This document shows, piece after piece, positions 4,980 to 51,700 of a DNA stretch of 64,000 bases. The stretch covers positions 6,907,501 to 6,971,500 of the forward strand of contig AP031355.1 of NCBI GenBank assembly GCA_037833965.1. Reading direction: 5' to 3'. A program made the translations under genes and the position numbers. Source of the DNA: Marchantia polymorpha subsp. ruderalis (Eukaryota > Streptophyta > Marchantiopsida > Marchantiales > Marchantiaceae). A model generated the notes under the pieces. That model searched no databases. It saw nothing but the letters and a program-made list of their open reading frames with translations, and had not been told where the DNA came from. How positions within the stretch are numbered: position 1 is the first letter of the stretch; every line of letters begins with the position of its first letter.

Positions 4980-6499
4980 AGCTTGAACTTCGGAGGTGAT
5001 CAATGACCATGGAAACCAAGGACGAAAGATTACACAGACAGCTGATGAACGCCATTGTCTGTGGTCATATTTCACTTGCAAGAACTATTGTTATGCCTTG
5101 TAATCTTGGCTCAAAAGTCTACCATATAAGCCTCGATTTGTTTCTAGACGTATAGTGTGGCTCAGTTGTGGTGTGATGTACCGCATATACTTGGCAGGCA
5201 TACGTGGCGAAAAAGGGGTTCGTGCACTGAAGCTTCCGACCGGTACATCGCCCCATCATATTCGGTCACTATGCTGTACATGAGTGGATTGAATGAATCC
5301 CCTCACACTTGTAAAGGGTTTTTGACACCTAGCTGTGGAGAGCTTGAATGATCAACAAAAGCCTGTAGACTTAGTGTTCAACTAGAAATGGAAGGTGACC
5401 GCCTCACCATATGGGACCGTTTGGTTTCATGCATGTGGACTCGGTGTACCCAATAAGCTGACTGCAGAGCCCTTCCCAGATCTGCTTCCCTGGCCTCGCT
5501 GTGAATATGAGTAAATTGGAAAACATGATCAGTCAAATGGGTTCAAGTTATTGATCTCCCAATCACGTAATGAACGTGTAGACATTTTCAGAAAGTTTTT
5601 CTCCGTGCTCGAGTCAAAACCCTACTCAGTGCCTCGAGCAGGAGTGCAAACGTGTGGAATCATGGCGCGAGAAGGTCCGTAGTGGAGACTATTAGCATCA
5701 CATGGCATCAGAATTGCTACCGTAGAGAAAGTAGAGGTATAAGCTTGAGTCGGGTAGAGTTTCCTCCTGCCTGACGTCCACGAAGAGGAGTGACCCATCA
5801 TTACGTCATTCTGGTTGACATGGTTCCAGCAGCCGCTCTTTATGTGTACTACTACGCTGAATTCAGCACTTGACAATCGAGATCAGTTAGTGGAGAGTGA
5901 GCTGTCACTGATTGGAGATCTTCGTGCTCATCGTTGCGTCCCCCCTGCACGTGGGAAATCTTTTTAGAGTCTATAAGTGTTCAATACATTTTTTCACAGA
6001 AACCTTGCTTTTCCTCCCGCATCGAGCTCAGAGCCGAAACTATGTACGCAACGTCAGCGACTCCTTCGTAGTGCTAAAATATGCCACGTCGTTGCCATGG
6101 CGCTAGAGAAATCCTTGCCAGTGCTGTCCGCGTAGACAGGTATGCTTGAAATCTGAGAACACTGCTACTAGATCTGTTCTGATTCACTTTGCAGGGATGT
6201 GATGATGTAAGTCTGTTTCGTCGGCAATTTTTTCCAGCATTCTCGCGGCTATCTAAAGTATGACGATCACAACACTGATTCCAGAAGCTCGAATGACGTG
6301 GTCGGCATACACAGGCAGCTCTAAGACACAGGCAGGATTATTGAAATGGGCTTGTTGAAATCTACATCGGAAATATCACTGAACGTAAAGCCGGTTATGT
6401 TCTCGAGATACAGAGGGCGATCACAGAAAAGCAGGCAGCGACATTGTGAAGTTCGACCGGCTTACTCCTCTTTGCTCAGAAATTCTGCTTCACAAGAAA

Positions 6500-7820: not shown

Positions 7821-10800
7821 AACCTCTCTCCTTTGTGATGTGATTCATTCTTAGCTCCGCTTGAGATGCATAATGCTCTGTGGATAGGATCGTCATATAA
7901 TCGATGAGGTCCAAGAATTTGCCTCTGCGGTTATCAACTGCGTGTGACAACACATCATTTCATACTTTCGTCTTTTAAGTGATACAAGTTAGTCTTGATG
8001 CCGAATATTACACTATTGGCACGGATATCTCCCGAACAGCTTTACTCAGTTATGAGGTCACCAATCCACAAGGTACTGAACTCTAAATCCAGCATGTCTG
8101 CTAGAGATGAGCAGTGAATAAGAGGAGAACCTGCAGTAGTTACAAGTAGTGCATCATGTGTGCATTCGTGTATGAGAAGAAGTGGTTACAAGCAGTAGGT
8201 CAAACACGAATCTCAGCCCACGAGTGGCAGATGCAAGCTCAATTACAGAACTCTCGAGGCATCCAAGTGCTCCAGGTCTACAACGAATCCGCATTTTTTA
8301 GAGGAATCGTGGATCAAACTAGGCCAGTGCTCTTATGACCCACGATCGCTTCCTGCCTCCAGACAACATAGCCTTTTACTGACAGGAGCATGGTATCCAG
8401 GGCTCTGAAATTGAAAACACCTGGCTGTAATAACCTACTAGAGAAAAAAACCCGGAGAGTCAGACTCGTGCCGTTCAAAGGACTGAAGGTGACAGACAAA
8501 AGATCGTCTAAAAGTAGAACGATAGTCAAGGAATTTTTAAGTAGTCACGGATATGATTTTATGAACGGAAACTCATTTTTCTGTACGCATCTCATAATAT
8601 CGAAGGTCTGAAGACTCTTATGACAAGCCTTATGACACATTTGTACCACAAAAGAACTTACATTGGATATTTTCAGCAAGAAAAAGCACACTTTCGTGTT
8701 CAGATATCGTCCTCTACTTATAATAGTTACAGATAGAAAGCAGAAGACCGAGGGATGTATCTTGATATATCGAGGCTGCAGTTGTCGATCATCAACGGGG
8801 AAACGTGAGAATTTTTGGGGAATAACACTACAGCATATACAACAAATTATATGTCTGGGGTTTAAATGGGTTGAAACCGAAAAGCGTCATTTTGTAATTG
8901 AAAGTAGGAAATTTTTGCATTTGACGTTCTTCGAGAAGAACATTTTTTGGGGGTCTATGAAATCATTCCTTGCTCAGATTACTATCCCGATTGAATGGTC
9001 CACTAAAACTACACCATCAAGATCAATTTGTCCCAAATAAAACGGTCCGAATGGAACACACTGCTCGGTAGGAAAGCAAGTAATCTGTGAGTGGAGGTGG
9101 ATGTATCAGTGATTAAAGCAGTGACTCTTCGGACTGAATTCAAGTCTAGATCGAGTTGAAGGTTTATGGAACCGAAATAACTACCACTCACAAGAAGCAC
9201 ACTGCATTTAGTCGTCTAGAAGTTACCTTTGGCTGGTGTAAGCATGGTCGATATTTGGCTACCGGATAAGCTTGTTCGTTAGATCATTGGAAGGTTATTG
9301 TGCATGGGTCTAGCATCTTAGAAAGGAGATGAAAATTGAGCACGGCACGGTTCACATGTCTAATATTGCTGCAACGAGGCTAGCTGCCATGCAATCCAAA
9401 TTTTAGTCGTTATATAATTCTCCTTCATCGACTTAGTTTAGCCCACACCACTGCTATGCCTAAACCTTTAATGTGCCGATCTGTATGTAACCACTTCGTT
9501 CCTGAAAATCCTACAGGGGAGAGCACACAGAGTAGGAGAACGGATTAGACAATGAAAATCTAAGGTTAAATTAATGGAACCGCATTCGACGAATAGATAT
9601 TACTTGAAACGCTGTCTTCCGGTAAGATGTTAAACAAGATAAGCGAGTTAAAAGGCTTTGGCTGAAAAACTGGGTTGGACTGGGTAGTGACATCCGCAAT
9701 ATTCAGGAAAGTCAGTTCCAGCGTTTGAAGTACTACCTTTGGTTCGATCATCTCATATTGTACCCCTGTAACCTAGAGGCACGTCGTTGTGTTAACAGAG
9801 GTTAAGCTACTGAATTTTGAGCTACTGTATGGCACTGTGACTGGATCGGAGAAGCATAGTTTTGACACAAATTCTAGTAATAGACGGAGCAAGATAGGAA
9901 GCGTCCACATAAACTCATGCCTTTACAGTTGAAAGATTAGCATAACCACTGCAGGTCTGGTCGAAGGTTCATCAAGATCAGTTGTGATCTTGGTGCACAT
10001 GCTTGGACAATATGCTCAGGGGACCGATATTTTCCCACTTTCCACCTGCACCCAGATCGTGAGCTCATGAGATCAAGTGAAATAGCTTGATGTATATCTG
10101 TCTTCTCATAATTTCCTGTGGACTGAATATTGCTCATTCATATTTCATCATACACAGATTCTGAGCATGCATCGGATGTGGTCAGAAGATCTGATAAGGC
10201 GGCATTGACTTGATAAGAAGCCCTATGCACGCATGCAGCCCAAACACCATCCGATGACCCGTTGATTTCAGAAAAATATTTTCTGTGACATTGATGAATC
10301 TGACAATTGGGACATCATTCTTCACTTCGTGCAATCATCGTTACAAATAAAAACTGAAAAGCACCGTGATGCGTATACTACGTGAGAATGGAAGATCAGA
10401 ACTGCAGAGATTATCTTGAGTTTATCTTGGGGACTACAAAGGGTACTCGATGACAGCCATGATGACACGCGGTCTTGGATTGTGGAGCTTATGTAGGGAT
10501 ATTTTCACCATTGAAAGAGTAGCTTTAGGTAAATTATGCGACAAAAGTGAAATGATTGATGGGTAAAAAATTTACTATTAGACAAAGCTATTGATCGTGT
10601 AGCATTAAAGAAAAACGTTCAGTAGTTCGATAGGAAGGAAGAGAACCCATTCGTTTAAAAGTACTTGAATTTATAATAACTAATACTCAAAAGATGATTA
10701 TGGGAGAGAATATATTAGAGAAGAACGGATATAATAGTAATTTCATTGAAAATTTCATTAATATTGTCAAAGCGGAGTGGACGTAGGATGAGCAGATTAC

Positions 10801-16690: not shown

Positions 16691-17157
16691 GCCAAGGGTT
16701 AAGATCTAAACCTCCTCTGGACCACTCCTACACGTTGCTGAATGCTGATAATTTTCACAAGAGTTGGGCTGAATATAGATTCAGCCCAACTCTTGTGCAG
16801 ATGTTGATTGGAGTTCTTGCTATAATATAAAACTGGAGAATTATGTATGCTGTTCATGCTAGTTTCAGATAGACCTGCTGACATATCATGATTTTGATTC
16901 ATATCCAAATACTTGATACAGCCTAGCAATTCTATCTCCATTTGAACTAAAGATCTAAATCTTGACTTCATTCGATCAGCAGATTTTACCAATTTTGACA
17001 ACACTGACAGTCCTCATTTACACCACAAAATCATGTTCAGGGAATCAATGGTTATTGGATTTAATACACAGGGAAGAGTCTTATCAAGCTTGGCCTGGGA
17101 TCAATGAAAGAATGAGATTCATCTAATTCAATTGTATCTACACCCACCGCTAGTGCT
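16690..17157 (-). repeat. Inverted copy of the 3' flank of the peroxidase gene
   Basis: Read on the minus strand, this segment matches the plus-strand DNA downstream of the intact peroxidase (about 26,900-27,330). For example, the complement of the block around 17,080-17,155 matches 26,904-26,975, and the block next to ggtccagaggaggttt is shared. It belongs to the same inverted duplication as the peroxidase pseudogene. It contains one change not shared by the other copy: a new hairpin at 16,756-16,797. Confidence 0.85.
16756..16797. repeat. Perfect 19-bp hairpin, present in one duplicate only
   Basis: The arm cacaagagttgggctgaat (16,756-16,774) and its exact complement (16,779-16,797) flank a 4-nt loop. 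The homologous site in the other copy (about 27,262-27,293) has only one arm, followed by an unrelated 12-nt stretch before the shared flank resumes. The second arm therefore appears to be a new, inverted copy of the first. Confidence 0.92.
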
Positions 17158-18391
<1,234 letters not shown>

Positions 18392-19139
18392 TGGTGCTAG
18401 AGCGATACCGACCAGACTTCCACCGGGGGTCCGGGCCTTTCAGCAAGTCGACGATCTCGTCCTCGTACCCAGTCGAAGGCAGTCCGATCACGCAAGTTGA
18501 TCAGACTCACCTTCCGGCACAATGCCATCATCATACCATGGGATTGCAGAGAACAAAAGATTATCTCCCATCTATGCTTGACAGAAACTCGCAAAAGACG
18601 AGATACGTGCGTAAATGTGAACTTAGAAGTCATGATACTTTTAGACATGTTGAGTTAAGAGTATCCAAGAACCAAGCTATGTTTTCAAGGAAAGCAACAA
18701 GATAAAACTTACAAGCTGAATTGAGTTCGAAGATCCCGAAGGAAAGTTTCCAGCTTGTGATAAGTCGTTCATCTCAGCGGCCTTTTATATCTGAGTTTTT
18801 GGCTTCCAAGTGGTCAAAGCAATATTTTCCAAACTGTGATTTTCAGTCCGATGGGGGCCAATGCCACACATGCTATGGGGACTTCACGTCCATGCATTTC
18901 TAGCCTGAATGAATTTCATGACAATCAGCTTTTCTAGGTATCAGGTCAATCGTGATTACAATTGTGGTTCAAAAAGGTATAATTGCACCACGAAACTCTC
19001 CGATTGACTATACCATTTTTCCAAAATTCAAAAGATAAATGTTTTCTTGTATCTACACAAATAGTTAGTTCTGACTTCTGGTGCAAAGATTAGAATCCTT
19101 AGATGGCCCGACTACACCTCCCACTCAAACGCATCCACG
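18392..19139. other. 5' flank of the peroxidase pseudogene, then unassigned DNA
   Basis: From 18,392 to about 18,560 the minus strand matches the 5' flank of the intact peroxidase (24,980-25,123), including a shared gaaggtgagtctgatcaac block. Beyond that the similarity fades. I see no gene between about 18,600 and 19,139. Confidence 0.6.
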
Positions 19140-20035
19140 CTCTGTTGAAGTTTTTAGATATCCTCTCTCCTTGGGAATGTAAATAGATTCCGGTCATTTC
19201 TGACTCATGGCAATTTGATAAGATTGGCTCTTCGCATTTCTTAATGATAACACATTCTCAACTCCTCAAACTTCTACTTCGCCCTTTTGACGTTACATAT
19301 CTAGTCATAGTCTTTCTTCAATTTTATGCATTTTCTTTGATAGCTTCTTCTTTGTACGTTTGATTCAGTTGCAATGTGCTTTGGATCTTGGACTTCTTTC
19401 CTTGAGCAAAGCTGTGCATGACATGGATGAAAAAATGTTTCCATCCTCTTCTGACTTACACCCTTTAGTATACTAAGTACCCATTTCGTTTCAGCTTTAT
19501 GACGACTCACAGAACTTCAATTTTTGTTTTGACAAAGCTGCAGCTTACAAATTTGGCTCTCCTTTATAAACTTTCCATGATTTTGTTGTATGTCTCAGAA
19601 AGTTTTGTCACAAAAGTCAAGGATAATAGTATCTAAAAGGTCTTAATAATTTTGGAGCTATTATCTTAAGCTTGGCATCACCTATTTTTTTGTATCTTAA
19701 ACGAGAATTCGTGATCACAATGGGTTCACATAGGTGCAGCTGGGATATTAGATTCTGTTAATTTTCAGCTGTAACTTCGTAGAGGCGCTTGTTTTAATGG
19801 AAAACAGCTGTTTTTAAGCTTGGTCTATATTGTTGAGAAAGTATTTGGCACGTTTTAGTCATATCGTGAACTACAAGCTGCAGGCTGCAATAGTCCTTCA
19901 TACTTTTCAGAATATTGTCATTCTTACAATAGACCTGCTTTTAAATGTGTTGTTTCTTGCGCTGATATATTGGCTGTGGTCCCGCACGATAAACGCTACT
20001 GATTTGGCATTTTCACTCGGGCGATCTCAATCTTA
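19140..20035 (+). pseudogene. Partial IDD zinc-finger gene copy (copy A)
   Basis: This segment is a diverged direct copy of the palindrome arm at about 21,420-22,260. It lacks the first zinc finger but keeps traces of later IDD parts, in different frames. One is an agcaaagctgtgca block that corresponds to the CSKKYA region of IDD finger 3. Another is a reading RFSFMTTHRT near 19,488-19,520, comparable to the RRDSFITHRAF block of IDD proteins. Stops and frameshifts are numerous. The last 450 bp are shared with the other copies but have no assigned function. Confidence 0.65.
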
Positions 20036-20445
20036 GTGCAAGAGATACCGAGAAGTGTCATCTCCGACTAGCTAAAACAAGATTCCAGCAGTTGAAAAGG
20101 AAGTGTTGCATACTCGAGGCAGCGTTCCATACATAGTTAATGAGCAATTTCAATAGAAGGAGCAAGAAAAACTGAAACGGTGGAAGTCATGAAAAGCATT
20201 TTGACCGGTGTTTACTTGTTAAAAAGGTAAATTCTGTCATCAAACTCCACCTCTCGCGGTACCGACATTCTTTCTGGCTCGTGCTCGATGGTAGTGGCGC
20301 ACGCTGGCCCAGACAGTCATTAACATCTGGTATCCTCACGGAATCCTAAGACTTTGGTGTGCCCTATCTGTTCGGTATTTTTGCACCATTACTTTTCCGC
20401 TGGAGACGAGCGTTGCGCTGCAGTGTGGCGCGGATAGCGGTCTCA
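20036..20445. other. No recognisable gene
   Basis: I see no gene. A short block near 20,068 (tgtcatctccgacta) weakly resembles sequence just before the peroxidase fragment at 28,334, which hints at a shared repeat boundary but is not conclusive. Confidence 0.35.
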
Positions 20446-20612
20446 ACATTTCAAATCTTCAGATCTTCCCAAGCTTCGAACATACACAGAACATTTCAAA
20501 TCTTCACAAGCTTCGAACACACTCTGAACATTTCAAATCTTCCCAAGCTTCGACTATGCTCTGAATATTTCAAATATTCAAATCTTCCTCAGCTTCAACT
20601 ATGCCCTGAATA
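20446..20612 (+). repeat. Minisatellite, four units of 37-44 bp
   Basis: Units starting acatttcaaatcttc (or atatttcaaat) begin at 20,446, 20,490, 20,528 and 20,565, each followed by an aagcttcga or agcttcaac block and a ctgaa block. Unit length varies from 37 to 44 bp. The frame through it is open by chance (20,359-20,625), so a coding role is doubtful. Confidence 0.88.
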
Positions 20613-20975
20613 TATATGCAACTAGCCCGTAGAGACCGACCAGTAAGCAGATGCCATTCAACGGCCACATCACTTTTGAATCTCAAGTCGGAGACATGGA
20701 GCGTGTGCATGCTCAGTGAAGTTGTTGGATCAGAGAAAGTCTTGAAGGCAGCATGTGGCCAGCAGTCGCTAAGCTTACAATCAATCCCTTACCATCAATC
20801 CCTTCGTGGTTGTGGAAATCGCGGGGTGCAAGGCACTTTACTAAGCCCTGGTCTTCAACATGTTGATGCTCTAGACAGGCGCACACAAATTCGTTATTTT
20901 GCACGGCGAAGAGCAAAATGCTTTTCAAAACATCAAAGGTTGACGAAGATTCGGAGATTCTGAACATGGTGGAGC

Positions 20976-23449
20976 ATGATTAGTATGTTTACGTGAAATC
21001 CACAATCTTGTACATTATTATTGTTGAATCTTCTGTTCAAATATTCATCCGTAAGTCAAGGATGCCTGGCTGATGTTTGGATATGTTCTCTGAAGCTAGG
21101 TTTTTTTTTGTCAATTTGGCTAGAGACAATAGGAAGAATGTAAAAATTTGCCATCAGGGACTTATACCAACTGTTGTACAAAGCATTAACTACTCATTAT
21201 GGCAGTTTTTTGGTATGCGCAGATCCAGATGCTGAAGTAGTCGCACTTTAGTTTAAGACGGTGCTCATTACTGACAGAGGTGTAATGTGTGAAGTTTGTG
21301 ATAGAGCTTTTCAGACAGAACATAACCTACATTTACGCAAGCGCGCACAATTTTCCCGGAAGCCTGAAACCTAGAGCTAATAAAGAGGAGGAGATTCGAA
21401 ACAAAGTCTATGTCCGCATCTCTTCTTGGGAATGTACATAGCTTCCTGTCATTTCTAACTCATGGCAATTTGGTAAGATTGCCGCTTCGCATTTCATAAT
21501 AATAACGCATCCTCACATTCTCAACTTCTCAAACTTCTACTTTGCTCTTTTGAACTAACATATCTAGTCATAATCTTTTTTTAATTTCATGCATTTTCCT
21601 TTATAATTTCCTCTTTGTAGGTTTGATTCAGCTGCAATGTGGTTGGGGCCTCGAACTTCTTCCCTTGAGCAAAGCTATGCATGACATGGATGAAAAATGT
21701 TTTTTATCCTTTTCTGGCTACCACCCTTTAGTATACTAAGTCCCCATTTCGTTTCAGCTTTATGATGACTCATAAAACTACACTTTCTGTTTTGACAAAG
21801 CTGCAACTTACAAATTTGGCTCTCCTTCAGGAACTTTCCATGACTTTGTTTTATGTCTCAGAAAGTTATGTCAAAAAAGTCAAGGATTGAGGGTTTCATA
21901 TGATATGCACTAAAAGGTCTAAATAATTTTAGAGCTCTTAAGCTTGCCATCACCCTATCTTTTTGTATGCTGCTTTGGTGATCACAATGGGTTCACATTG
22001 CTGCAGCTGGGATATTGGATTCTGTTAATTTTTAGCTGTAATTTTGGTAGAGACGCAAGTTTTAAGTAAAATAGCTTTTGTAAAGCTTGATGTATATATT
22101 TGAGAAAGTATTTGGCACCTTTCAGTCATATCGTGAACTACAAGCCGCATGCTCCACTACTCCTTCATACTTTTCAGAATATTGTCATTCTTACAATAGA
22201 CCTGCTTTAAATATGTTATTTCTTGCGCTGATATATTGGTTGTGGTCCCGTAGGGTAAACGCGTGTGATCGGACGCGTTTACCCTGATCGTGAACAACAA
22301 GTTCACGATATGATTGAAAAGTGCCAAATACTTTCTCAACAATATAGACCAAGCTTAGAAACAGTTGTTTTTTATTAAAACTTGCTTCTCTTCCAAAATT
22401 ACAGCTGAAAATTAACAGAATCTAATATCTCAGCTGCATCTATGTGAAGCCATTGTTATCAGCAAAGCTGGTTTAAGATACAAAAAGATAGGGTGATGGC
22501 AAGGTTAAGAGCTCTAAAATTATTTATACCTTTTAGTGAATATCATATAAAACCCTCAATCCTTGACTTTTTTGACAAAACTTTCTGAGACATAAAACAA
22601 AGGCATGGAAAGTTCCTAAAGGAGAGCCAAATTTGTAAGTTGCAGCTTTGTCAAAACAGAAAGTGTAGTTTTACGAATCGTCATACAGCTGAAACAAAAT
22701 GGGGACTTAGTATACTAAAGGGTGTAAGCCTGCAGAGGATGAAAATACTTTTTCATCTATGTCATGCATAGCTTTGCTCAATGAAAGAAGTTCGAGATCC
22801 ATTGCTGCTGAATCAAATGTTTAAAGAGTAAACTATAAAGTAAAAGGCATGAAATTGAAGAAAGACCATGAAGAGATATGTAAGTTCAAAAGAGCAAAGT
22901 AGAAGTTTGAGAAGTTGAGAATGTGAGGATGAGTTATCATTATGAAGAGTCAATCTTATTTAATTGCCATGAGTCAGAAATGACAAGAAACTATGTACAT
23001 TCTCAAGAAGAGATGCGGACATGGACTTTCTTTCAAATCTCTTTCTCTTTATTACCTCTAGGTTTCAGGCTTCCGGGAAAATCGTGCGCGCTTGTGTAAA
23101 TGTAGGTTCTGTTCTGTTTGAAAAGCTCTACCACAAACTTCGCAGATTATCCCTCTGTCAGTAATGAGCAACGTCTTAAACGAAAGTGCGACTACTTCAG
23201 AATCTGGATCTGCGCATATCAAAAAACTGCTTATAATGAGTAGTTAATGCTTCATATAAGAGTTACCCTGATGGCAAATTTTTTCATTCCTCCTACTCTC
23301 TCAAGCCAAATTGACAAACAAAACCGTAGCTTCGGAGAACATATATAAACATCAGCCAGACATCTTTAATTTACGGATGGATAATCGAATTGTAGATTCA
23401 ACAATAAATCTGTACAAAATTGTGGATTTCAAGTAAACATACTAATCAT
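20976..23449. repeat. Large palindrome: 1.2-kb inverted arms, minimal centre
   Basis: The outer ends pair exactly in sense: atgattagtatgtttac near 20,976 is the complement of the end at 23,449. Matching continues inward to a central hairpin at 22,253-22,283 (arm gggtaaacgcg, about 9-nt loop). Sampled stretches agree at roughly nine of ten bases by eye. The right arm lacks about 120 bp near the centre. Both arms carry the same IDD zinc-finger exon in opposite orientation, so the structure is an inverted duplication of a gene fragment. The outer boundary falls inside IDD intron 1. Confidence 0.92.
21223..21870 (+). pseudogene. IDD-type C2H2 zinc-finger pseudogene, left arm (copy B)
   Basis: After a conserved acceptor (gcgcag at 21,217-21,222) the frame reads DPDAEVVAL, then after one stop VLITDRG and CEVCDRAFQTEHNLHL. 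This is close to the IDD signature DPDAEVIALSPKTL-ATNRF-CEVC-KGFQR-QNLQLHRRGH. After a frameshift it continues with SLKPRANKEEEIRNKVYV, matching the IDD linker before finger 2. Later blocks around 21,670 and 21,760 correspond to the CSKKYA and RRDSFITH regions. Finger 1 keeps both cysteines but has lost the last zinc-binding histidine. IDD proteins are plant nuclear transcription factors. No exon 1 is attached on this side. Confidence 0.87.
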
Positions 23450-23822
23450 AAAAGTACAAACGTTTCTTCTTAGGAGTACCAGATGATCCAAGCGTGGTCT
23501 TCAGTCACAAACCACACCTTACCTGGGGTTCCAGGAAGATTTCATTTCCTCTTAACGCCCTGTTGTTTCTCATTGTTCTGCACATCGAGGGTTGCAGACG
23601 TGGTAGTCGTGTTAATGGCTGGTAACTGTACTGATACTAGCTCGGTACAGGAGGGAGCCTGGGTTGTCTCAAGTATAATTGGTTTTACATCCAATGAATG
23701 CTCCTCTTCCGAAACCCGATCTGCTGAGGTTGGCTCGTTCCTGACATAGGCTTGTTAGCTGAAGGTGACATACAACTTGAAGACGCCATCTTATCAGTAT
23801 CACTCTCCACTTGGCCTAGCAT
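22600..23822 (-). pseudogene. IDD-type C2H2 zinc-finger pseudogene with exon 1 (copy C)
   Basis: Exon 1 runs 23,822-23,523. It opens at an ATG (23,822; another, MASSSCMSPSANKP, at 23,789), shifts frame near 23,720, and ends with NEKQQGVKRK, a stop, then NLPGTP. The donor CAG|GTAAGG at 23,523/23,522 and the acceptor gcgcag before 23,209 are intact. They join in phase to give NLPGTP-DPDSEVVAL, exactly the exon 1/exon 2 junction known in IDD genes. Exon 2 continues with SFKTLLITDRG and CEVCGRAFQTEQNLHLHKRAR. The last His of finger 1 is Arg, so the finger would not bind zinc normally. Later fingers survive only as traces. The stop in KRK*NLPGTP replaces the usual Arg codon. Exon 1 lies outside the palindrome, so this is the longer of the two arms. 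Confidence 0.88.
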
Positions 23823-25123
23823 GTTTCTCTGTTAACTCCACCTTACTTTTCCAAAGAGAAAAAAAGTTTCTGTTCAGACAACTTATCCACATGTACGGTG
23901 GACAACTGTTGATTTCTTCCTCTCAATCCTCTCTATTGCAACAAAAGTCTATCTCATAGACTTCGAGAATATACCATAATTTCATTTTGAGTGAGAAGTT
24001 CCTGTCATGATGTTGCTAAGTACAGGACTGAGGGGACAGAAATGAGTTATTTGGAAACAGAGAGGACTGTGTTGAAGTCTCACACTCTCAGATGGTACAC
24101 CACTAGTCCATGTACGTACTTATTCAGCTGTAGGAAAAATCCAAAACATGCATGCCAATGAAAGCAGAAAACAGAAGGCGCTTGCACTTCAGATCAAAAA
24201 AATCCCAAATCCCAACCTTCATCGAAGTCTCGTAAACAAAAGTTTACCTTACTCTGCAGTCACATTAAGAAGACTTTGGACGTTTCTGATATTATTCGCT
24301 CCATTATATGATATGTCTGCAGTCTCCGACGTCATTTTTTACTACTCGTGATCTGTATTGATTGGCCATTAGAACGCTTGGTCTCGTAGGTTCTGAATCA
24401 TTCCTTGAATGAAGGAATGAACTTCATTAAATCTCACTATTGCATTACTGAAAGATCATGCGCTCCTTCCTAAAGAGGGACCGAGGAAGGTGGTAAAATC
24501 TACTACTAACTATGGATCTGAAGGACACAAGCGTGTGAAGTGTGATCAGATCTACTTCTCCGTGGGACATCCATTGCTGCACTACTGATATAATATGCAG
24601 TTCCGATAGAATATGTAGAGCGTGATTTCACATAGTCATGGCCAGCTTGCAGTATTAAAATAGTTCATGTAATGTATTATCAAGAAAGACAAGCACAGCG
24701 TGGAGGATATCATTGTGATCATGGATCCTAATCTCAAGTATAAAAGACCATAGAATGGTATGTCTTATCACAAGTTGGAAGAGCTTCATCTGATCTTTGA
24801 CCTCAATTCAGCTCGTGAGTTTTATCTCAATGCTTTGCACAGGCGTTTAGGCTGCTCTTGGATCCTCTTGGCTTAGGAAGTGTCAAAGTTTCAGTTCGCT
24901 TAGTTCGTCATTTGAATCTAGTGTTCGCGATCTCATGTATGGCATGCGTATCGGATTGTCTATCTTTCTCTGAAATTGCAAATGATGGCACTGTGCAGGA
25001 AGGTGAGTCTGATCAACTTGCGTGATCGGACTGCCTTCGACTGGGTACGAGGTCGAGATCGTCCACTTGTTGGAAGGCCCTGGACTGCCTGGTGGGAGTC
25101 TGGTGGGTATCGTTCCAGCACCA
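23823..25123. other. No recognisable gene; 5' flank of the peroxidase at the right end
   Basis: I see no coding sequence. A tataaaag motif at 24,739-24,746 could be a TATA box for the peroxidase 378 bp downstream, which is far unless the 5' leader is long. The last 140 bp match the flank of the inverted pseudogene. Confidence 0.35.
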
Positions 25124-26698
<1,575 letters not shown>

Positions 26699-30898: not shown

Positions 30899-32254
30899 AT
30901 GGCTGGAGTGGCTGGATCGTCGAAAGATAAGTACCGTGTGAATGAGTATGCCACCGAATACTCGTCCAACTATTGCATCCACAAGGAATTGTCGCTCAAA
31001 GATCTGGACAAGTACATGACCTATACGGCCCCGAAAGCTCATCCAGCTGATTGGAACGTCGTTCGAAGGAAGCTCGTCGTGCTCGATCTGAACGGCATTC
31101 TGTGTCGAATTTCTGGCGTCAAGAACAGACAGACAGATTTTGATAAGGTTAACGTGAAAGAGGACTGGAAAAATCAGACTCTGGCGCTCAAAGTGCGACC
31201 GGACTTGTACCAGTTCCTCTCGCTCATGCTCGATACCTGTGACATTGGCATCTGGACGAGTAGGAAGTTATACAACTTCGACCAGTTGTGGACAGCTCTG
31301 AGGGATCTCAAATGTGTCCCCGACAGATGGGCATTTGAGGTAATCCTAGTTTCTCGAGTTGTCATCCAATGTCGAATGCTACCAAAGCCATTCCACTTCC
31401 AGTATTAGAGTGGTCAAAATGCCATCACAACAGCCACACACCGACATCCGTCTGTGAAATTTCCCTTGTCTTATCGAGGAGTTGTCACTCCATGTCCTCT
31501 TGCTAGATAACCATGCAATCAGATTAGGATCGATAAGAAGCCGCTAAGTGGGCACTGACCAAAATTGTGGGAATCGTGACGTGCTGCTCGATGGATATGT
31601 GTCTGGGCTTCTTAAATTTTGGAGAATTGAGAAATTGATGCTAGTCTCGATCCGTGCTGCTCGATGGATATGTGTTTGGGCTTCTTAAATTTTGGATTAT
31701 TGAGAAATTGATGCTAGTCTCGATCCGTTCCGCAGGGTGAAAGGAACTTGAAAGAGATGCAAGCGTTTTCCAGAAACCCATTCAGGCTAACGCAAGAGAA
31801 CTGCGTTCCCATCGAGGTGGGAACTGGTGATGGAGGAGTGCTGTGGACGAAGCCGGTGAAGGAGCTGAGAGATATATGGCCCGGGAGCGAGAGGGACATA
31901 CTTTTCGTCGATGACTCGGTCGAGAAAATGAGTTTGAACCATCCATACCAGGCAATTTATCCACCCAAGTGGGAAGTCACGATGACAGAGGACAGATTTC
32001 TGCTCGGTGCTCTGTATCCGTTCATCAAGAAGTGGGTCGAGAGTATCGAACCCATTTACTCGTTCGTGGAGAAAAATCGTAAAATGGTTCAGAGTAAAGA
32101 CCATATTCCGGAATTGGCCAAGTTTTGGAGACCTGTAAACTCGAAATACCGAGACTACCTATTTCGTGATTGTCTCCACGTCGAACGACCCGTGTTCTTG
32201 AGATGGTTCGACGAAGAATGTCAGAAGCAAAAAACTGCGGCGTTGAAAGCTTAA
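30899..32254 (+). CDS. FCP1/SCP-like HAD-family protein (NLI-interacting-factor-like), two exons
   Basis: Exon 1 30,899-31,339 and exon 2 31,736-32,254 join at GAG|GTAATC and CGCAG|GGT to give 319 residues. The frame is open from upstream, and this is its first ATG. The fold shows the FCP1-homology blocks in order: KLVVLDLNGIL (residues 59-68), an IWTSR block about 50 residues later, a conserved-Lys region (WTKPVKELRDIW, 184-195) and ILFVDDS (202-208). FCP1/SCP enzymes dephosphorylate phosphoserine on proteins such as the RNA polymerase II tail, using a DxDxT/V motif. Here the second Asp is Asn65 (DLNGI), so the general acid/base is missing and activity may be lost or altered. The first Asp (Asp63) and the DD pair (206-207) remain. 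No membrane segment or signal peptide is seen. The substrate is unknown. Confidence 0.92.
31581..31726 (+). repeat. 73-bp tandem duplication inside the intron of the FCP1-like gene
   Basis: The unit gtgctgctcgatggatatgt... begins at 31,581 and again at 31,654; the two copies differ at about four positions. The second copy ends nine bases before the 3' splice site at 31,735/31,736. Both copies carry a pyrimidine-rich cttcttaaatttt block, so the possible branch region is duplicated. Confidence 0.9.
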
Positions 32255-35884: not shown

Positions 35885-36029
35885 TGTTTTTCGAAGCGAA
35901 AGAGTGTCTATCCTAATGTCCCAAGTTACACGGTACAACGATACGATTGTGTTCGTCAACGCTGTGAAACTATGCACCTACTGCTCTTAGTCACGAGGGC
36001 GGAGTGGGTCAGCAGCACCTCCCGTCTTC

Positions 36030-36985
36030 CACAAATTTGTTGCTAAATTGGTTGTTTAAGCACGTGCACCGCATCGATTGCATTTCTGACAAACTCAGGT
36101 TAGTCTACGAACACTAAATCTCACACTAACCTTTTCGTCCTGATGATACTACTGCACTAAATACTTTTTAGTTGAGTATTTTATAGGCTCTCGAGACTCC
36201 TTTTGACCCTAAAACATCATCACATAATCGTACACGGTGCCACCCTGTTTGCTTGTGAACCATACACACAGTCCAAAGATTTGTTGCTAAATTGCTTGTT
36301 TAAGCATGTGCACCGCATCCATTGCACTTCTGACAAACTCGGGTTACTCTACGAACACTAAATCTCACACTAACCTTTTCGTCCTGATGATACTGATCCA
36401 ATATCTGATTAGTCTGTTTTTCCTCTCGAAACTCCTTCTGACCTTAAAACATCATCACATAATCGTACACGGTGCCACCCTGTTTGTTTGTGAACCATAC
36501 ACACAGTCCAAAGAATTGTTGCTAAATTGCTTGTTTAAGCATGTGCACCGCATCCATTGCACTTCTGACAAACTCGGGTTACTCTACGAACACTAAATCT
36601 CACAGTAACCTTTTCGTCCTGATGATACAGATGCAATATCTGCTTAGTCTTTTTTTCCCTCTCGAAGCTCCTTCTGAGCTTAAAACTTCATCACATAATC
36701 GTACATGGTGACACCCTGTTGTTTTGTGAACCATACACACAGTCCAAAAATTTGTCGCTAAATTGCTTGTTTAAGCACGTGCACCGCATCCATTGCACTT
36801 TTGACAAACTCGGGTTACTCTACGAACACTAAATTTCAAAGTAACCTTATCATGATGGTGATACTGCTCCAATAAATACTTAGAATTTTTCCCCTCTCCA
36901 AACTCCTTCTGACCTTAAAGCTTCATCACATAATCGAACATGGTGACACCGTGTTGTTTGTGAGCCATACACACAGTCGAACCTT
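36030..36985 (+). repeat. Satellite-like array, four units of about 236-244 bp
   Basis: Marker tgctaaattg occurs at 36,041, 36,285, 36,520 and, as cgctaaattg, at 36,756. Each is followed by a caccgcatc block, an acactaaatctca block, a cctgatgatac block and a catacacacagtc block. Spacing is 244, 235 and 236 bp. A fifth unit breaks off near 36,980. Adjacent units share more than nine bases in ten by eye. The frame through it (36,306-36,596, +) is a by-product of the repeat. Confidence 0.9.
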
Positions 36986-48757: not shown

Positions 48758-51700
48758 ATGGATAACGCGAAAGAGGAGGAGATGGCTCAACCGCTGATCC
48801 AGCCGAAGCCGAAGCGGCAGCATGTGATGCACGAAGGTTTTATGAAGTATTTGGTGGCGTTCGAGTTCTTGGAGAGAATAGCTCTGAGAGGAGTACAGAC
48901 GATCCTGGCTCTGTTTTTGCTCGAGAGCTTGCACTTCAGCGAGGTGGCGGCCACAGAGATCGTGCACTTCTTCCTCATCGGATCGTTCGTCAGCCCGTTC
49001 ATCGGCTCCTTTGTCAGCGATGGCTTCCTGGTGAGTCTCCTCCTCCTCCTCCTCCCGTAGCGTAGTCCTTCTCAAACTGGCAATTAAAGAGATGCACGAA
49101 ACAGATCAGACTATTCGATTGGCGTGCATCTAACGATCACAGCCATATCTCCCATGCCACCTCAACATCACAACTTGTGATCTCGAGCTTCCACGGACCT
49201 TATCGATGACGAAATCTCCGCACTGTAAATGCACATCGGAGTTCGTTTCCTGCACAACGGGGATGAGAAACTTCATTCCGAGACTATACTTTATCTGGAG
49301 CATATATATATATCCACATATATCCTGGCTGAAGTACCAAGTGTGTCTGATTGAAGGCGAGTATAGAACTGGGTCCTGGTGGACGTGATTATATCGCGTT
49401 TGCCCATTTTATTCGAGGCCCGGCCCGATTCTTGTGTGTGAGAGAAGGATAGCTTGCGAGGGAAATGGATCGCTGATGAAGGGATCGGTGTGTGATGATT
49501 TGCAGGGCAATTACGTGGCCTGCTACATTTTCTCCTACTGTGAACTTGTGGGACATATACTGCTCAGTGTGGCGGCCATACCAATCGTCAGTTGGCAGAC
49601 CTCTGCAGTGAACCACGTTATGGTGCCGATGGCGCTGGGACTGGTGGTGCTGGGAACTGGAGCTCTGAAGCCGTGTCAGGTCACATTCGGAGGCGACCAA
49701 ATGAGCCACAGCTTCGACCAGAAAAATGGCCCCAACACCTCGGACGCCACGAAGAAGGAGGCGAGTCATGAGTTCTTCTCCGCGTACTACATGGCCATGA
49801 ATTTGGGCACGCTCTTCAGTGCCGTCGTTGCGCCCATCATCCGAGCTCAAGGCCACGGCAACTACTTCTACGCCTTCCTCATGCCTGCGTGCTCGATGGC
49901 CTTGGCCATCACATCCTTCTGGCTCGGAAGAAAGACTTACTACTATCGACCGATTCCGTCATTAATTCGCGAGAGTGGTGGTGACAACGAGCCAACGAAG
50001 CGCGATGGAGATTCGTCGTGGGGCACGGCGGAAGAGAGCGCCAAGCTCGTGGCTGCTGTGGAAACTTCGTACATGGAGGATTTGAAGGATACGCTGTTAG
50101 TGCTTCTCATCGTCACGCCCTGTCCTTTCTTCACGGCCATGTTCTTCCAAACGAGCTCCACTTGGGTGTTCCAGGCTCGGACCATGGACGGTCACGTGCC
50201 CCTCTTCGGCGGCTTCACCATCGAGCCCGACCAACTGCCGGTGAGTAAGATCGGCACCTCTGATGCTCGTTCAGTCATCGAGTGCCCAATCGCATCCACT
50301 CTTCTCTCTCCCGTCGTGCTTGGAATCTGTCCTCGAATTTCATCCTCGGCAACTCTTGCAGTGCACCATATAATCGGATGATAATCAATCGTCCAGTGAA
50401 CTCGACGAGCACTGAAGTCGTCGAATACCTGACCGTGAAATCGTCGAGGAATGTCTGGGTCGTGGACCTCGGTCGAGACTCGAGCGAGCGAGATTTCGGA
50501 ATTGACAGGTCGGTTCGTGCCGAGAAGCGAGGAGCAGTGGTTTGGATCCAGGTCAAGGATTTGATATTTTCGTCAATCGAGTCATCGTCCATAGCTGCCT
50601 GTCTCGTCTCGTCTCGTCCACGCTGCGCACTGTTCGACGATTCCTCTCCCAGACGAATCACTCCTTGCCCGGGTCCTTCGTGTTGCGCATTCCGACCGAG
50701 GAGTGAGTAGAAGGAGGGACCCTCCTCCTCCTCCTCCTCCTCCTCCATCTCCCAATCGCCGATTCGCGATGCCGTCGTGCCGACCGCGGGCCCTTCTCGT
50801 TGATTCTGACGGCACCCGCTCTTCCTCCCCCCTCCCGACATCCGCGGTGGCCCGAGAGGGCGCCAAGACCGTTAGGAGCCGTTGGGTCAGCGAGCCTTGA
50901 CATGGCTGCTGACCCAGTCAGTGACTACGGGCAAGGACGTCCCCGTCCACTGTCTTCGAGCTGATGTCTTCCGATGGAGACTTGAATTAGTACAGTAGTG
51001 GCTTCTGACACGATTCCTTCTCAGAGAACGAACGTTTGTAGTCGTCAGGGCAATCACAGTACTGTGAATGCAGGGACATGGAGGAGGAAATGTCGGAAGT
51101 AATGCTCTGAGAATCTCCCGGCGAAATGGTGCATGTCTTTATTGTAATTTGACCGAGTTGTTGTTGCACATCTTCATTCACTTCATCCGGCTGCTGTTTC
51201 CTGGTGTACCCTTGGAACAGATACCGTTAATCGACGAAAACATCGTCTGACTTTCATGGCATGATTTCACTAGCTTTGAGATTACGCATAACTCGTGGTA
51301 TTCTGATGACGACTTGATTCCACTCCATTGTCATCATTCATAACTGTGACTGGATCTGAGTGTCAGCTTGAGGTAATTATTTATCTACCAACGTAAGAAT
51401 GTCAAGGAGAAAACCTCTGACGGGTCTGTCAGACAATCGCAGCTGCTCCTGCGGGATCGTTGGGGTTACTGATGATGCTTGCTTTGCGTTTCTGATTGAC
51501 AGGCGTTGAATCCGATTATGGTTTTCGCGATCATCCCTCTGATGGACCAAATCGTGTATCCCTTCATTGAGAAGTACATTTGCCCGCTGCCAAATTTGAC
51601 ACGTATGGTGTGGGCACTGGTCGCGGCCTCGTTATCTTTCACTGCATCGGGTATTCTTCAAATGTATATCAACGCGAGTTTACAAGAGCAAGAAGGGAAC

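Follow-up and report, generated by a model that had tools for sequence, protein, structure and literature searches.

The palindrome at 20976..23449 of the window, the 64,000-nucleotide stretch of the Marchantia polymorpha genome analysed here (C6:6907501-6971500), contains two inverted pieces of an IDD zinc-finger gene. It therefore raises the question of whether such a locus is a source of hairpin RNA matching IDD transcription-factor mRNAs, as the original prediction proposed, or the remnant of a copying event with no present role. We compared the arms with one another, with the surrounding sequence and with the genome, which comprises 241,466,482 bases in nine contigs (eight of them 24-33 Mb long, the ninth 5.6 Mb). 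The account that we favor, and consider likely, is that of a decayed composite pseudogene with an inverted duplication, formed by fold-back copying in place between a peroxidase-upstream sequence, called X below, and a peroxidase gene.

Structure and composition of the palindrome

The features of the locus are as follows, with identities to the relative named or, for the dispersed repeat, to its longest copies.

19164..19996 (+): copy A of X, probably the original, within the region upstream of peroxidase genes; 84% to the left arm and 82% to the right arm
20140..20323 (+): piece from ~3.3 kb upstream of the ATG of the IDD gene on C3, in gene orientation; 87%
20320..20976 (+): dispersed-repeat fragment (657 bp), cut at both ends, forming the left edge of the palindrome; 83-89%
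20976..21414 (+): frameshifted IDD part of the left arm (B), comprising the end of intron 1 and the exon 2 segment for finger 1
21415..22270 (+): X part of the left arm (B), continuing into the spacer
22140..22299: spacer of 160 bp without a counterpart in the right arm
22252..22285: perfect 13-bp hairpin with a loop of 8 (22252-22264/22273-22285), inside the spacer
22287..22309: 9-bp hairpin with a loop of 5 (22287-22295/22301-22309), across the right edge of the spacer
22300..23013 (-): X part of the right arm (C)
23018..23449 (-): IDD part of the right arm (C), comprising the exon 2 segment for finger 1 and sequence of intron 1
23450..23932 (-): unpaired tail of the right arm, comprising the remainder of intron 1, exon 1 of the IDD gene and 5' flank; 93.0% to the C3 gene
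24128..26698 (+): peroxidase locus, presumably class III, with upstream region and exons, on the right-hand side of the insert; Pfam peroxidase hits for three exons read separately

Alignment of the arms bears out the predicted inverted repeat, with 20976-22139 (+) pairing with 22300-23449 (-) at 86.3% identity over 1172 aligned columns, gaps counted. Without gaps the identity is 88.6% (130 of 1142 sites differ), so that an estimate by eye of nine bases in ten alike was roughly right but slightly high. The arms were also thought to meet at a tiny central hairpin, which is not the case because the spacer separates them. Each arm does carry the IDD finger-1 exon, in opposite orientations, but only the outer ~440 bp are IDD-derived. 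The inner ~720 bp, about 60% of each arm, are X. The IDD homology of the right arm does not stop at 23449 and runs on to 23932. Among the five inverted pairs of 300 bp or more in a scan of 156,314 bases of the same genome (the window plus 14 loci, a biased sample), the palindrome has the greatest length and the highest identity.

Palindromes are a known cause of assembly error, and a false head-to-head join would produce an apparent inverted repeat. However, the differences and gaps between the arms indicate that this is not one sequence read twice, and the center has a spacer and hairpins of its own. We regard an artefact of this kind as extremely improbable.

The nearest relative of the IDD part is an IDD gene on C3. 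A genome search with an IDD query gave 12 matches in all. Besides the two arms these include three IDD-like genes, at C6:25.70M (91%), C3:28.56M (79%) and C2:16.01M (71 and 68%, two exons), and another seven of those listed are C2H2-like (31-40%). Exon 2 of the C3 gene aligns with the two arms at 85% and 84% over about 208 bp, with intron 1 aligning in pieces, and the right arm as far as 23932 matches its intron start, exon 1 and 5' flank at 89% over 563 columns. As we model the C3 gene, its reading frame stays open across the first two exons and on into exon 3, and the BIRD-IDD fingers of Pfam are recognized in exon 2. The copy in the palindrome resembles IDD (BIRD) genes in that exon 1, intron 1 and the finger-1 exon follow one another in the order of the C3 gene, but it is truncated after finger 1 and frameshifted.

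No open frame runs through the finger domain of the copy, which is truncated in exon 2 and frameshifted in both arms. Compared with the C3 gene, each arm has the same two indels, a 3-bp insertion and a 2-bp deletion. The 2-bp deletion is the frameshift that removes the second, last zinc-binding His of finger 1 in both arms, which confirms the predicted loss of this residue and identifies its cause. The fragment was also held to have been broken before it was inverted, and this conclusion stands for a different reason, namely that both the deletion and the insertion are shared. Exon 1 of the right arm (ATG at 23789) has a 1-bp deletion and stops in addition. At 17 shared exon-2 changes that can be compared with the C6 IDD gene, C3 agrees with C6 at 10, the arms agree with C6 at 2 and 5 favor neither side, indicating that most of the changes arose on the arm side.

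Probable origin by fold-back copying

In both arms X begins where the IDD homology stops, in mid exon 2 at KVYV. Copy A is a third copy of X, in direct orientation, and has no IDD sequence. The end of copy A has 66-68% matches near peroxidase genes in all four peroxidase loci compared, and the homology of this region to other peroxidase loci continues to about 20131. Between the end of X and the peroxidase upstream region lie 0.9-1.7 kb in those four loci of the family and 4.0-4.3 kb in the window, which indicates that the IDD-X block is extra there. Polarizing X against other peroxidase loci gives few sites: 5 for copy A, 3 for the arms and 2 for neither.

Relatives of the peroxidase at 24128-26698 lie mostly on C6 at 2.9-6.9 Mb (at least 90 matches; best 40 of 88 candidates scored). 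Two peroxidase loci, at 17157-18849 (-) and 24128-26698 (+), diverge around X; the former looks broken by eye and the latter is open exon by exon. Elsewhere in the window there are a direct tandem repeat at 36028-36981, with units of about 240 bp that are 82-89% alike, an open frame of 330 aa at 49389-50378 (+) that matches the POT/PTR2 transporter family, and an open frame at 31718-32251 (+) with a weak match, slightly under the family cut-off, to NLI-interacting-factor-like phosphatases.

The left edge of the palindrome has a history of its own. The longest copies of the dispersed repeat at 20320-20976 are on C5, C4 and C3, and they align with each other beyond the fragment, up to 2381 bp, so the piece in the window has been cut at both ends. 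This repeat family (L057-L061) is at least 2.4 kb long and has 37-bp minisatellite units at 20458-20613. To the left of the fragment, 20140-20323 matches positions 8478-8614 and 8653-8699 of the C3 locus (L007) and no other place among the matches listed. The left arm must therefore have carried additional IDD sequence in the past, and its replacement took place at what is now the left edge of the palindrome. This argues against the arms being transposon termini.

A transposon with long terminal inverted repeats was considered and rejected, given that the left edge consists of a truncated repeat of another family and that, on the right, the arm continues through IDD exon 1. More broadly, some plant transposons capture gene fragments with introns, and the long inverted arms and short center would suit a foldback or long-terminal-repeat DNA transposon carrying an IDD fragment as cargo. 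The ends of the inverted repeat are nevertheless not the ends of an element, and X has a neighboring copy that lies outside the palindrome. No target-site duplication was seen by eye at the palindrome ends, and two whole-genome searches, in which the best candidates were scored, gave no second copy of the palindrome among the matches listed, only copy A and short pieces elsewhere. An origin as a mobile element is accordingly very improbable.

The sequence of the central spacer is shared by the left arm and copy A but is missing from the right arm. The segment 22287-22301 repeats 22130-22144 in the forward direction (14 of 15 positions), and the two hairpins lie in or across the edge of the spacer. 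When 22140-22330 was shuffled 500 times, the longest stem obtained was 8 bp, and none reached 9 bp. The locus thus has both features that we looked for in a fold-back inverted duplication, a one-copy spacer and a short inverted match at the turn (the 13-bp and 9-bp stems). The forward-reverse-forward-reverse order at the center may be the trace expected of repeated template switching.

Human inverted duplications have a one-copy spacer and short inverted matches where the turn occurs (PMC3907307). The likeness to these human fold-back cases extends to the combination of direct and inverted copies, and foldback inversions in yeast share the spacer and the short inverted matches (PMC7467729). 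The human and yeast cases (PMC3907307, PMC7467729) are events at chromosome ends with spacers of 766 bp or more, whereas the palindrome has arms of 1.2 kb, is internal to the chromosome, has a 160-bp spacer and contains two successive turns.

The sequence itself shows an IDD piece, already out of frame, whose exon 2 breaks off midway and is fused there to a copy of X, and it shows the fused piece twice, head to head. In the account that we favor, the inverted copy would have arisen in place by fold-back synthesis, with the copied strand turning round at the short inverted matches, copying forward again briefly to give the repeat of 22130-22144, and then turning back a second time. The arm would next have been copied in reverse and joined to the peroxidase side, after which both arms would have gathered changes independently, with no sign of selection for pairing. 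This order is reconstructed from one genome. Most likely the palindrome does nothing now, and chance transcription would yield a long mismatched hairpin.

Divergence of the arms and the tail

The JC distance is 0.12 between the arms and 0.18 between the palindromic part and the C3 gene, values at odds with the suggestion that the locus is young. Over 683 sites of X, 35 changes are private to the left arm and 35 to the right, 49 are shared by the arms against copy A, and all three sequences differ at 7. The 343 sites of the IDD part give a similar picture, with 18 private changes on the left, 19 on the right, 33 shared and 2 where all differ. The equal numbers of private changes indicate equal ageing of the two arms. 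On the assumption of equal rates, the inversion (about 5%) and the separation from copy A (about 6% per lineage) would have been close in time.

The unpaired tail behaves differently from the palindromic part. Its similarity to the C3 gene is 93.0% (441 of 474 sites), compared with 84.3% (290 of 344) inside the palindrome (Fisher p = 8e-5). The change is best placed at 23505, which lies 56 bp beyond the palindrome, and 1 of 2000 shuffles gave one as strong; a change point placed exactly at the palindrome edge fits slightly worse (likelihood ratio 17.5 versus 21.1). The copy differs from C3 at 13 of 266 sites in exon 1 and at 26 of 190 in exon 2, which in C3 should be at least as constrained as exon 1. 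The changes in tail exon 1 look unconstrained (4 silent, 8 replacing and 1 stop). A single copying event from one pseudogene does not predict this contrast between tail and palindrome.

Most of the excess inside the palindrome is of one kind. Non-CG C-to-T or G-to-A changes relative to C3 are found at 23 of 119 C/G sites in the palindromic part of the right arm and at 4 of 177 in the tail (p = 1e-6, in a test chosen after the data were seen and with direction read by taking C3 as the reference). The left arm has such changes at 16 of 122 sites. CG sites that differ from C3 amount to 4 of 25 inside the palindrome versus 8 of 40 in the tail, and A/T sites to 16 of 200 versus 14 of 257 (p = 0.34). 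Simple neutral decay does not explain this non-CG C-to-T spectrum. Of the 23 changes in the right arm, 13 are common to both arms and so predate the inversion, unless the arms have exchanged sequence; the private ones number 10 on the right and 2 on the left.

One reading of the tail is that the locus is a mosaic, in which the IDD part of the palindrome represents an older pseudogene and the tail (23505-23932) either was copied from the C3 gene more recently or has since undergone conversion by it. The position of the change point outside the palindrome, the higher similarity of the tail to C3 and the unconstrained appearance of its exon 1 changes all fit this reading, to which we give about an even chance. 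Greater age of the palindromic part should, however, also raise the differences at A/T sites, which are close to those of the tail. A mosaic origin accounts for the contrast in amount, but not in spectrum, and it refines the fold-back account rather than replacing it.

Potential as a source of hairpin RNA

The claim that a transcript through the center would fold into a long duplex holds for either strand, almost from end to end. In the predicted folds, 1090 of 1093 and 1076 of 1086 pairs join the arms, compared with 11 to 97 of 735 to 786 pairs in four control stretches of the same length, and the MFE is -1625 and -1609 kcal/mol, compared with -589 to -755 for the controls. The extended foldback looked for in a proto-MIRNA or hairpin-siRNA locus is thus predicted here, and the similarity of the arms to a candidate target, exon 2 of the C3 gene, extends well beyond 21 nt.

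The duplex was expected to match IDD mRNAs in general, and it matches those of one gene. Alignment of the arms to the IDD paralogues, the check that had been proposed, gave a match to 192 bp of exon 2 of the C3 gene. For the other two IDD genes, none of the 378 and 391 windows of 21 nt in the exon stretches compared matches either arm with three or fewer mismatches. Of 1262 such windows in the modelled C3 mRNA, the left arm matches 30 (16 exactly) and the right arm 36 (none exactly) with at most one mismatch. The tail matches 225 of the 1262, but it is not double-stranded. Perfect 21-nt duplex windows between the arms number 7 in the exon-2 part and 95 in X, with none in intron 1.

Our own mark of an established regulator was a target-matching duplex better preserved than the rest. 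No such difference is found, the exon-2 duplex being 90.7% identical and X 88.9% (p = 0.52). Differences between the arms that are compatible with G:U pairing number 36 on one strand and 29 on the other out of 130, with no clear lean to either transcript. A search of Rfam gave no family at E up to 1 in 19000-24500. The candidate target would be one gene only, over 192 bp, and nothing in these comparisons indicates selection for pairing with C3. We infer weakly, from this one pair of arms, that there has been no selection to keep the arms paired.

These observations bear on the possibility that the locus is an active hairpin-siRNA or proto-MIRNA locus, whose transcript is diced into small RNAs that repress or methylate the C3 IDD gene. 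The full-length predicted foldback and the C3 windows matched by the arms are consistent with this idea, as is the retention of IDD exon 1 and 5' flank in the right arm. Hairpin RNAs with mismatches can still function in plants (PMC9263138). RNA-directed non-CG methylation could, in addition, leave a C-to-T excess such as that seen inside the palindrome. Against this, pairing in the target part is no better than elsewhere and no Rfam family was found over the interval searched. A promoter may be missing because homology to the 5' side of the C3 gene stops at position 5347 of its locus, 139 bp before the ATG. The sharing of 13 of the 23 changes and the imbalance of private ones are a poor fit to two equally paired strands, unless the arms have been homogenized, and private non-CG C-to-T changes in X (20 in 444 site-arms) are far below the level of the IDD part. 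On balance an active locus is unlikely.

Known plant systems show where the palindrome fits and where it departs. In the inverted-duplication model of MIRNA origin of Allen and colleagues, as related in PMC3237417, such genes begin as inverted copies of a piece of a gene or pseudogene, and the palindrome likewise holds inverted pseudogene pieces similar to a candidate target. Its arms, however, are 84-85% like that target over part of one exon and otherwise mostly unrelated to it. The Arabidopsis PAI1-PAI4 locus is also a rearranged inverted repeat with an unlinked single-copy relative (PMC3203196). A fused promoter directs its transcription, and the locus produces 21-24-nt RNAs and induces methylation of its relatives (PMC3203196), whereas the arms of the palindrome are diverged fragments. 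Literature searches on Marchantia together with IDD genes, inverted duplication or hairpin RNA listed no paper on this locus.

A more specific version of the idea is that the palindrome is a past or present hairpin-siRNA source, in which non-CG methylation scarred the palindrome but not the tail, and that its small RNAs touched exon 2 of the C3 gene. We consider this quite improbable. If it were true, the shared part of the scar would reflect sequence exchange between the arms, the palindrome would be older than the private differences suggest, and the locus would be a liverwort gene-fragment palindrome that marks itself through its mutation spectrum. Because M. polymorpha is a model plant, this would be easy to check. 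With fold-back copying as the likely origin, the locus illustrates how, next to duplicated plant genes of one family, such copying can link a pseudogene to neighboring DNA and produce a palindrome, and palindromes of this kind are the raw material that has been proposed for hairpin-RNA genes.
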